From an uncultured Spirochaetota bacterium (GTDB lineage: Bacteria > Spirochaetota > Spirochaetia > Treponematales > UBA12059), in contig CALMRC010000086.1 in assembly GCA_937873275.1 (NCBI GenBank), positions 1 through 46,040 on the forward strand: 46,040 bases of DNA, read 5' to 3'. Of the stretch, positions 7,669-18,478 are shown piece after piece (the first letter of the stretch is position 1; each line of letters begins with the position of its first letter). The notes under the pieces are model-generated. The model was not told the origin of the DNA. It did no database searches and saw only the letters and a list, made by a program, of their open reading frames with translations. The position numbers were made by a program, and so were the translations under genes.

Positions 7669-7746
7669 ACGGGGCGTTCCGAAAACGGCAACTCAGGATT
7701 CTCCCGAGCTGTCCTGAACTGCACCGAGCTATCGGGAAGTGGTTTG

Positions 7747-7761
7747 GTACATTTTTTGTAC
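7747..7761. promoter_or_regulatory. Inverted repeat GTACA-TTTTT-TGTAC
   Basis: Five-base arms flank a run of T, forming a symmetric 15-base site in the leader of the sigma-54 activator gene. It could be an operator half-site pair; its partner protein is unknown. Confidence 0.3.
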
Positions 7762-7773
7762 AGTGGGGGGGCG

Positions 7774-12288: not shown

Positions 12289-12783
12289 ATGGAAAAGAAG
12301 GTAGCGGACCTGCGGTCCGGGCTCGTTGTCATGATCGTCTGTGCCCTGCTGTATTTCTGGGCTATACCCGCCCAGATCCGGTACAACGGCCAGGCAGACC
12401 TCAATCCCGATTTCTTCCCCCGTCTCCTCGTGATCTGCGGGGGAATCTGCGGGGCTATTCTCGCCCTCACGTCGGCAGCGGGACTAAAGAAAGCCGGGCG
12501 GCTGAACGTAACCCTGTTCCGGTCGCCGGAAGCCCGGGTGAATCTGAAAAGCTACATGCGCCATGCCCTCTTCCTGGCCAGCGCCCTGGCGTATCTCTTC
12601 GTGGTGGGATACCTCGGGTTCGTGCTGGCCAGCGTCCTCTATCTCGTATTCCTCCTACTTTACTTCGGGCATACCAGGATCCACTGGTGCCTGCTGGAAT
12701 CCGTCCTTTTCGTGGCCGCGGTATACCTGGTCTTCTCCCTGGCCTTCAAGATCAGCTTTCCCGAAGGCTTCCTGGGCTTCTGA
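12289..12783 (+). CDS. tctB: Tripartite tricarboxylate transporter small membrane subunit TctB
   Basis: A 164-residue membrane protein with four hydrophobic helices, the usual size and topology of TctB. The stretch after helix 1, QADLNPDFFPRLLVICGG, is the family hallmark (P-x-F-F-P). It follows the isomerase gene by four bases, so the two are probably translationally coupled. TctB works with the large subunit TctA and the periplasmic receptor TctC to import citrate-like carboxylates using an ion gradient. All three are present in the order B-A-C. Confidence 0.88.
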   Translation: MEKKVADLRSGLVVMIVCALLYFWAIPAQIRYNGQADLNPDFFPRLLVICGGICGAILALTSAAGLKKAGRLNVTLFRSPEARVNLKSYMRHALFLASALAYLFVVGYLGFVLASVLYLVFLLLYFGHTRIHWCLLESVLFVAAVYLVFSLAFKISFPEGFLGF

Positions 12784-12806
12784 AGACCGGACGCAAGGAG
12801 ATCGAC

Positions 12807-14294
12807 ATGAACGTGCTTCTGGAATCCCTGAATCAATTCCTTTCGGTGCCCGTTCTTCTAGGCATCGCGGCGGGCGTCGTGGTGGGCATTATCGGCGGCG
12901 GAATGCCGGGAATCAGCCCGTCCATGTGCATCGCCCTCCTCCTTCCGGTGAGCCTCTACCTGCCCACCCCCGTGGCGATCGGCCTGATGATGGGGTCCTA
13001 CCAGGGTTCCATGTTCGGGGGGTCGATCTCGGCCATCCTGATCAACACGCCGGGGACCGCGAGCGCGGCGGCCACGACCCTGGACGGCTACCAGCTCGCC
13101 CTGAAGGGTCAGTCGGGCAAGGCGCTCAAGATGGCCCTGTACGCGTCCTGCTCCGGCGGCCTCATCGGGACCATCATCCTGCTGGCCATGGCCAAGCCCC
13201 TGTCCACGGTGGCCCTGAAGTTCGGCCCCCCGGAGTACTTCAGCCTCATGCTTCTCTCCCTGGCCCTCATTTCCGGCATCTCGGGCAAGTCCCTCCTGAA
13301 AGGCCTTATCTCCGCTCTCCTGGGCTTGCTCCTGGCCACCGTGGGCATGGATCCGATCATGGGTACCCGGCGGTTCACGTTCCGGAACATCAACCTGGCC
13401 GACGGCCTTCAGACCCTGTCGGTCTTCATCGGGGTCTTCGCTCTCTCCGAGCTGTTATCCCAGCTCTCCCAATCCCGGGCGGACCTCTTCAGAAAGGCGG
13501 ATCCCCTGAGCGTGTCGGACAACGAGCTCACCTTCCGGGAATTCTGGGAGCAGAAGATCAACATCCTGAAGTCCTCGATCATTGGTGCCCTCATCGGCGT
13601 CCTGCCCGGCATCGGGGGGAGCACCGCCTGCTTCGTGTCCTACGCCGAGGCCCAGCGGCGGTCCAAGCATCCGGAACGCTTCGGGACGGGGATCCTGGAA
13701 GGCGTGGCGGCCCCCGAAGCGGCCAACAACGCCGTCGCGGGCGGGGCCCTGGTTCCCCTCCTGACCCTGGGCATACCCGGGGACGTCGTCACCGCCATCC
13801 TGGTGGGCGCCCTGATCGCCCACGGGATCAAGCCCGGGCCCCTGATGTTCATCGAGGATATAGGGACCGTGTACACGATCTACATCGCCCTGTTCCTCGC
13901 GGTGGTCGTCCTCCTGGCCGTGGGGAGGGTCGGTATTCCCGTCTTCGCCGGTGTCGTCAAGCTCCGGAAGGCCACCTTGATTCCCATGATTTTCATCATC
14001 TGCGTCGTGGGAACCTACGCCAACCGGAGCAACATCTTCGACTCCATGACCATGATCGTCCTGGGCGCCCTGGGATTCATCCTGAAGAAGAACAAATTCC
14101 CCATCGCGCCCCTGGTCATCTCCTTCGTGATCGGGGCCCAGCTCGAGATGAGCCTGCGGCAGAGCCTGATCCTTTCGGACTACAGCATCTCCATATTCCT
14201 CACTCGGCCGATCTCCCTGGTCCTGATCGTGGGGGCCCTGGTGTTCAGCGTGTTCATGGTGCGGCGGAACCGGAAACTCGCCGCGCAGGCATAG
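12807..14294 (+). CDS. tctA: Tripartite tricarboxylate transporter large membrane subunit TctA
   Basis: The 495-residue protein has about twelve membrane helices and the TctA signatures. The first is GIIGGGMPGISPSMCIALLLP near residue 27, and MMGSYQGSMFGGSISAILINTPGTASA follows. In the second half the repeat of this motif reads VLPGIGGSTACFVSYAEAQRRSK. It forms the translocation pore. The ATG at 12807 is fixed by AAGGAG seven bases upstream; the longer frame overlaps tctB. Conserved glycine-proline loops are intact, so the transporter should be functional. Substrate choice depends mainly on TctC. Confidence 0.93.
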   Translation: MNVLLESLNQFLSVPVLLGIAAGVVVGIIGGGMPGISPSMCIALLLPVSLYLPTPVAIGLMMGSYQGSMFGGSISAILINTPGTASAAATTLDGYQLALKGQSGKALKMALYASCSGGLIGTIILLAMAKPLSTVALKFGPPEYFSLMLLSLALISGISGKSLLKGLISALLGLLLATVGMDPIMGTRRFTFRNINLADGLQTLSVFIGVFALSELLSQLSQSRADLFRKADPLSVSDNELTFREFWEQKINILKSSIIGALIGVLPGIGGSTACFVSYAEAQRRSKHPERFGTGILEGVAAPEAANNAVAGGALVPLLTLGIPGDVVTAILVGALIAHGIKPGPLMFIEDIGTVYTIYIALFLAVVVLLAVGRVGIPVFAGVVKLRKATLIPMIFIICVVGTYANRSNIFDSMTMIVLGALGFILKKNKFPIAPLVISFVIGAQLEMSLRQSLILSDYSISIFLTRPISLVLIVGALVFSVFMVRRNRKLAAQA

Positions 14295-18168: not shown

Positions 18169-18193
18169 GGTTCAAGTCCGGCAGGTCCCACCA
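18169..18193 (+). other. tRNA-like 3' fragment (T-arm, acceptor end and CCA)
   Basis: GGTTCAAGTCCGGCAGG followed by TCCCACCA looks like the T loop, acceptor strand and encoded CCA of a tRNA. No matching 5' half with D and anticodon arms is found in the preceding 130 bases, and the 5' T-stem strand (TTCGG) pairs poorly with CCGGC. It is therefore a remnant, perhaps an old attachment site or a broken tRNA. It shares 22 of 24 bases with the 3' end of the tRNA-Ile gene 230 bases away, which lies on the other strand. Confidence 0.45.
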
Positions 18194-18194
18194 A

Positions 18195-18223
18195 CCAGGG
18201 GCCCCGCGACGCGGGGCTCCTGG
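18195..18223. terminator. Very stable 14-bp hairpin, likely 3' end of the polycarboxylate operon
   Basis: CCAGGG-GCCCCGCG pairs with CGCGGGGC-TCCTGG around a minimal loop, with only one G-T pair. It lies 131 bases after the aconitase stop. The lack of a T tract means it may not terminate by itself; a transcript-end-stabilising role is also possible. Confidence 0.45.
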
Positions 18224-18239
18224 ACTTGCCCTTCACTCG

Positions 18240-18301
18240 CCGGAATCCTTCCGGCTCGCTCCGGGCCGCCTCGGGGCACTCGCGCCGCGTCCTGCGGCGC
18301 G
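18240..18301. repeat. Two further perfect short hairpins
   Basis: CCGGAA-TCC-TTCCGG (18240-18254) and CGCGCCGC-GTCCT-GCGGCGCG (18281-18301) lie back to back in the spacer before tRNA-Ile. With the stem at 18195-18223 they make three strong palindromes in about 110 bases, like a repetitive extragenic palindrome cluster. No gene is seen in this stretch. Confidence 0.45.
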
Positions 18302-18336
18302 TCCGCCCGCGGCCCTCATTGGATCGGGCTGCGGCA

Positions 18337-18422
18337 CAAGTCCAGCAGGGCCGCCGTGAATCAAGGCGGCCGATTTCGAGGATAAGCGATGTCTTTTCTG
18401 GGAATGGGCCCTGCTGGACTTG
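18337..18422. repeat. Inverted copy of the tRNA-Ile 3' end, 16-base perfect arms
   Basis: CAAGTCCAGCAGGGCC at 18337-18352 is an exact reverse complement of 18407-18422, which forms the T-arm and acceptor 3' strand of the tRNA gene. A shorter inverted piece, CTGGACTTG, also sits at 18220-18228. A precursor transcript reading through the tRNA could fold this copy back onto the acceptor end and compete with normal tRNA folding, or the copies may mark past recombination at the tRNA. Confidence 0.6.
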
Positions 18423-18478
18423 AACCAGCGACCTACGGATTATGAGTCCGCAGCTCTAACCGACTGAGCTAAGGGCCC
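18405..18478 (-). tRNA. tRNA-Ile(CAU), lysidine type
   Basis: A complete 74-base cloverleaf: acceptor GGGCCCT pairs with AGGGCCC and the discriminator base is A. The D arm contains AGCTCAGTCGGTTAGAGCT, and the T arm is GCTGG-TTCAAGT-CCAGC. The anticodon loop CTCATAA gives CAU. Three tRNAs share that anticodon. The body closely resembles E. coli ileX (same CTCATAATC context and GGTCGCTGGTTCAAGTCCAGCAGGG), so this is the isoleucine tRNA whose C34 is converted to lysidine to read AUA, rather than a methionine tRNA. CCA is not encoded. A strong promoter lies directly upstream. Confidence 0.9.

Follow-up and report, generated by a model that had tools for sequence, protein, structure and literature searches.

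The window analysed here (the whole stretch of 46,040 nt, from an uncultured member of the Spirochaetota, genome G000) contains a tRNA gene with several pieces of its own 3′ end lying downstream of it (Table 1). ARAGORN calls this gene Met(CAT), but to judge from ileX sequences it is almost certainly tRNA-Ile2(CAU). An earlier note on this DNA had pointed out four pieces of the tRNA end that alternate in orientation, among them an exact inverted copy, and had argued that they belong together. All four are present and all are accounted for by one unit (unit 1, 18220–18352) and the start of a truncated second one (unit 2). The outermost piece, described in that note as a second tRNA-like fragment with CCA, is instead the inverted tRNA-Ile end that opens unit 2: the sequence adjoining it on the tRNA strand is the typical start of a unit core, the CCA next to it looks incidental, and a second tRNA remnant was therefore rejected. 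A chance origin of the pieces was also rejected, both by the comparison of own and mismatched tRNA ends given below and by the sequence CAAGTCCAGCAGGGCC, which with up to three mismatches occurs seven times in the window against 0.81 expected, a number that no shuffle reached; four of the seven matches are the four pieces themselves. A terminator was looked for in the spacer between the tRNA and unit 1, and none was found. The junction CAAGTCCAG-GAGCCCCGCGTCGCGGGGC, where the shortened end of unit 1 meets the following sequence, is also present in the orthologous unit of the sister species G001.

Table 1. Features of the tRNA-Ile(CAU) locus, in positions of the window
Feature	Position	Strand	Basis or remark
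Promoter-like site upstream of tRNA-Ile(CAU)	18533-18504	-	
tRNA-Ile(CAU), host tRNA of the repeat	18405..18478	-	ARAGORN (as Met-CAT); Rfam RF00005, 74.4 bits
X, tRNA C56 to discriminator base (last 18 bases), copied in every unit	18405..18422	-	C56 boundary seen across units
Spacer, tRNA to unit 1	18353..18404	-	Weak hairpin GGCCGCC..GGCGGCC, without T run
X′ of unit 1, 5′ arm of helix P0	18337..18352	+	Exact 16-nt inverted copy of the tRNA 3′ end
Foldable core of unit 1, with hairpin domains P1 and P2	18229..18336	-	Covariance model R1 and computed fold
Direct X copy closing unit 1	18220..18228	-	Shortened to 9 nt, CAAGTCCAG
GC hairpin between units 1 and 2, in terminator position	18201..18217	.	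GCCCCGC-GAC-GCGGGGC
X′ of the truncated unit 2	18169..18190	+	20/22 complementary to the tRNA-Ile 3′ end; GAACCGAAGC next on the tRNA strand

Comparison with related genomes assigned these pieces to a repeat family with a constant anatomy. Reading away from the tRNA, each locus shows X, the stretch of the host tRNA from C56 to base 73; a spacer, often with a terminator; X′, which is X inverted; a core of ca. 105 nt with two hairpin domains; and a direct copy of X. In some loci, the closing X is followed by a terminator, X′, core and X once more. The arms are specific to the tRNA beside which they lie. An inverted copy of the tRNA's own 3′ end (score of 10 or more) was found 15–110 nt downstream of 12 of the 44 tRNAs in G000, against 0.15 expected from mismatched tRNA ends put at the same loci; at a score of 12 or more there were nine own-end copies and none with other tRNA ends. 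Comparable counts were obtained in the sister genome (9 of 43, 0.10 expected) and in another relative (11 of 41, 0.05 expected).

We then aligned 18 units, leaving out that of the window, as a seed for a covariance model (R1), which retrieved the window unit with E=1.2e-8 (match G000:C86:18214-18351:-). RNAalifold predicted for the 18 units a three-way arrangement, with P0 (X′ with X), P1 and P2, and double changes in 24 of 35 pairs. In 119 distinct units, the double changes extended to 34 of the 35 pairs, covariation was 0.632 versus 0.172, and 91.4 % of the paired cells could pair, compared with 62.5 % after shuffling and 31–46 % with slid partners; this alignment was fitted to the structure, which biases it towards the fold, but the slid and shuffled controls are still far off, and an earlier MAFFT alignment agreed with the same fold. 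The inner pairs of P0 (C56–C62) were almost never broken, whereas each of the four outermost ones was broken in 22–29 sequences, and the T-arm half of X is therefore the part that matters most. No family in Rfam 15 matched the repeat above its gathering threshold. The fragments in the window are a complete unit and a truncated one, from a repeat family of the Spirochaetota that is found at tRNA 3′ ends.

Using R1, the family was detected in 30 of the 39 nearest relatives and in 46 of 296 genomes of the phylum, 44 of them from the same class as the window and two more distant. Its linkage to tRNA genes is very tight. In four complete, single-contig genomes, 50 of 52 matches directly followed a tRNA encoded on their own strand or belonged to an array in such a place, and the two exceptions were a unit behind a 5′-truncated tRNA-Leu and one with degenerate arms. 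Overall, 129 of 136 distinct units had the orientation of their tRNA, one was reversed and for six no tRNA was found in the locus; the latter were two G001 units next to partial att copies of tRNA-Ile, one at a truncated tRNA-Leu, two that proved to belong to a tRNA-Gln array and one at locus L041. Both orientations are possible because the arms are symmetric, and L033 (G006:C126:7714-7850) holds the only unit found to be reversed relative to its tRNA. At L173/L305 (G034:C1:3459000), the tRNA-Leu that carries a unit is devoid of its 5′ part, probably as the far end of an island or through a rearrangement. At least 20 kinds of tRNA act as hosts. An exact pattern for the tRNA-Ile units, which represents a single sequence type, gave 14 matches among 84,980 species, all in spirochaetes, including one in a record labelled Treponema denticola. 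Phage and plasmid records yielded no DNA similar to the repeat, and in six viral contigs with a match to the core motif R1 found no unit.

The units also differ among themselves. Some unit cores contain a further, REP-like repeat (hairpin - ACAATN..TTCCTNNCGG - hairpin), often directly after the GGAT loop; it was seen in the cores at L257, L237, L211, L220 and L058, and also at L027, with variants in other genera. The tRNA-Gln array of G034 (L300) consists of four tandem units with a common P1 and two types of P2, one in units 1–2 and the other in units 3–4, which would represent domain swapping within the core. In G231, an extra small hairpin element separates X from the terminator at tRNA-Leu(GAG) (L302), and tRNA-Asn (L303) is followed by an array of five near-identical units, whose likeness suggests a recent amplification.

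tRNA 3′ ends are classic landing sites of bacterial mobile DNA, which normally uses them by means of integrases and direct repeats, and the earlier note had proposed that the pieces are scars of repeated integration at the tRNA, next to a catabolic operon. That this tRNA is an integration hotspot was borne out in G001, where a tyrosine integrase gene (Phage_integrase, 1e-18) follows the orthologous tRNA-Ile, and partial, att-type copies of the tRNA, which start in the anticodon loop and run to the 3′ end, occur ca. 29 and 39 kb downstream. Two islands have used tRNA-Ile in this species. The partial tRNA copies at 69.2 and 79.9 kb of the G001 contig each have their own unit behind them, and that at 79.9 kb is the orthologue of the window unit (78 % identical, with the same truncated X and hairpin), although the gene beyond it differs from that in the window; judged by the refuting condition set in the earlier note, the unit is therefore not a scar of this operon. 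Moreover, no fewer than 20 kinds of tRNA have units behind them, in most cases with neither integrase nor catabolic operon, and the units have a conserved, covarying fold. Furthermore, the islands share a repeat of ca. 40 nt whose start lies in the anticodon loop, while the first base of a unit is C56, in the T-loop, and island integration makes no inverted copies. The islands use tRNA-Ile through a different crossover site and did not leave the units as scars; an origin of the pieces by island integration is very unlikely.

The window has an island remnant elsewhere, in favour of past integration. A 97-bp segment (7676-7772, minus strand) shares ca. 90 % identity with the right-hand ends of both tRNA-Ile islands in G001 (L254:2050-2146 and 12734-12823, GTACAAAAAATGTACCAA included). 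It has no adjoining tRNA copy, is situated beyond the TctAC/RraA/aconitase operon, and appears to be a relic end of the same family of integrative elements.

We examined whether the conserved fold belongs to DNA or to RNA. G-T pairs made up only 2.6 % of G-T plus Watson-Crick pairs in the units (92/3595), versus 10 % in the tRNA stems of the same loci (178/1711), and in 58 of 92 loci a hairpin followed by a T run lay between the tRNA and its first unit. The low G-T pairing and the preceding terminators favour a role at the DNA level, although arm-to-arm correction of the hairpins could also lower the G-T content. On the other hand, folding free energy was lower on the tRNA strand for 111 of 119 units, rising to 114 when DNA parameters were used, and the unpaired bases of that strand are rich in purines, with GGA loops, a bias that would also suit a role as RNA. 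The core might accordingly be a structured RNA, for instance one with GGA hairpins that is bound by a CsrA-type regulator or takes part in tRNA 3′ processing, with units being kept for a host function. Besides the better folding of the tRNA strand, the strong covariation of the fold agrees with this, as do the near-invariance of GGA in the hairpin loops (778 GGA on the tRNA strand versus 234 on the other) and the retention of units in two species by most of the tRNAs that have them. However, the scarcity of G-T pairs relative to tRNA stems, the little room that a preceding terminator leaves for a promoter, the frequent CGA instead of GGA in P2 loops and the Rfam result all weigh against it, making a host RNA improbable. 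We infer that the units act as folded DNA rather than RNA.

The terminators bear as well on the suggestion in the earlier note that a fold competing with that of the tRNA precursor might matter. This would regulate the tRNA by interfering with the folding or the 3′ processing of its precursor. Such a fold is thermodynamically possible in the window, where the T-arm is paired to the inverted copies in the minimum-energy structure of the tRNA plus the downstream strand (z = -5.4) and no terminator intervenes. At most other loci a terminator precedes X′, and there the inverted copy should therefore be outside the tRNA transcript; additionally, the outer arms of P0 are often non-complementary, and a tRNA should fold before the copies get transcribed. 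As an explanation of the inverted copies, this competition is extremely unlikely.

How units reach a tRNA can be glimpsed from their borders. The tRNA-Glu(UUC) locus is empty in G000 (L082) and filled in G001 (L237), and in the latter X plus the whole terminator lie on both sides of an X′-core insert; this is one clear pair, from species only ca. 87–90 % alike. The pattern recurs among the 70 first units that close with a copy of X (at least 16 of 18 matches), because in 25 of them the sequence shared on both sides continued beyond X for at least 7 nt, compared with 5 of 4518 controls. The 5′ border of the shared stretch is sharp at C56, whereas its 3′ border varies (7–56 nt) and lies further away where another unit follows. 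This looks like a target duplication, produced upon insertion or copying and always starting from the T-loop. Two tandem units behind tRNA-Val(UAC) of the sister genome G001 do not differ in X, terminator or X′ but have different cores, with the switch exactly at the T-arm. The tRNAs that carry units are largely the same in two congeneric species, and units are therefore old at each locus and exchanged in sequence; this sharing would be equally consistent with vertical inheritance of units that serve the host. Both arms, X′ and X, always correspond to the tRNA beside them and must therefore arise at the target site. Because the tRNA 3′ end is duplicated, often together with its terminator, tRNA function is preserved and the element can be tolerated.

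Anatomy, fold, linkage, arrays and the single occupied/empty locus come from sequence comparison, and from them we infer the way in which units would move and spread. On balance we lean, by a narrow preference, towards a foldable DNA element at tRNA 3′ ends that would spread by copying or recombination, with the crossover in the T-loop at CRANTCC, a motif nearly identical in all tRNAs. The route we favour is replicative template switching. A strand leaving the tRNA would snap back and copy X into X′ up to the T-loop; shared GGANTYG sequence would next let it continue on the core of a different unit, and a last switch, at CRANTCC, would take it back. Snap-back alone leaves the conservation of the core fold unexplained.

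The principal alternative to template switching is an enzyme able to recognise the folded T-arm. The unit would then be a cassette-like element of a dedicated or host tyrosine recombinase, in which X′-core-X forms a single-stranded site akin to attC, the T-arm serves as the attachment site and a circle of X-terminator-X′-core enters at C56. Several traits of the units can be read in this way: the tandem arrays (up to five model matches, behind tRNA-Pro and tRNA-Asn of G231), the fixed border in the T-loop, the foldable arms, as integrons have, and the use of tRNA-Ile by tyrosine integrases in G001. Nevertheless, a circle bringing its own X and terminator would mismatch the native terminator of its target, while in many loci the left copy is identical to the right one, and both differ between species. 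The units of the four complete genomes contain no cargo genes, the arm border has no GTT/AAC integron signature, and the integrase of the G001 islands is absent from G000 and from most other unit-rich genomes. A recombinase cassette appears unlikely, with Xer-type recombinases as possible movers.

Other enzymes were considered as a universal mover, and each is missing from many unit-rich genomes, as is the island integrase. Y1 (PF01797) was absent from G002, G006, G011, G012, G013, G020 and G031, each with 7–16 units; the reverse transcriptase domain RVT_1, expected for a product of a retroelement, retron or group II intron, occurred in only 9 of the 39 relatives, and not in G000, G001, G006, G011, G013 or G034; and the IS110-family transposase (PF02371), expected for an IS110 element with bridge RNA, in only 5 of the 39. 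A still stronger proposal is that the repeat represents a new bacterial class of foldable mobile DNA, enzyme-free or driven by host enzymes, that jumps between tRNAs via the T-arm, whose sequence is nearly universal, with every jump copying the 3′ end of the new host both ways and leaving the gene undamaged; we put this forward tentatively, as a possibility short of even chances.

If true, inverted repeats derived anew for each host tRNA, in an element that has a conserved fold but lacks an obvious enzyme, would amount to a different way to insert beside essential genes. The repeat would offer, in culturable spirochaetes, a testable case of structure-driven template switching or a new site for a single-strand recombinase. 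For annotation, it is a warning that “tRNA fragments” of this kind belong to a repeat family and should not be taken for tRNA pseudogenes. A search of the open-access literature (with subscription papers and preprints outside its scope) found no description of the family, which as far as searched is previously undescribed in its anatomy.

Among known systems, the units resemble GGA-hairpin RNAs (RsmX/CsrB type, TwoAYGGAY) in having several hairpins with (N)GGA loops, and differ from them in their low G-T content, their position behind terminators and the lack of an Rfam match above threshold. With REP/BIME sequences and the palindromes mobilised by RAYT (GTAG, CGTC repeats) they share being short, gene-free, palindromic, intergenic, often arrayed and thought to be mobile as single strands; unlike these, they are fixed behind tRNAs, their arms derive from the host tRNA instead of being family-specific, and the Y1 transposase is missing in several unit-rich genomes. 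In RAYT-mobilised palindromes the hairpin foot is marked by a tag, GTAG or CGTC (PMC3733652), and no such tag was found among the invariant columns of our alignment. The likeness to integron attC sites and cassette arrays consists of a long foldable site, short inverted arms, tandem arrays and a fixed recombination border. The attC boxes carry GTT/AAC recombination triplets; no such boxes were found in the units, whose 3′ arm starts with CRANTCC after variable core bases. Additionally, attC sites have their R′/R′′ and L′/L′′ boxes on one long hairpin (PMC8352920), whereas the core of the units is three-way branched (P1, P2), there is no cargo and the arms follow each tRNA. Finally, tRNA-targeting integrative elements, bounded by attL/attR direct repeats, also use tRNA 3′ ends and restore the tRNA with a direct copy; the unit is, in contrast, only ca. 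160 bp long, with ca. 130 nt between its arms and neither genes nor integrase, and it adds an inverted copy and a conserved core, with a border at C56 and a variable downstream end.
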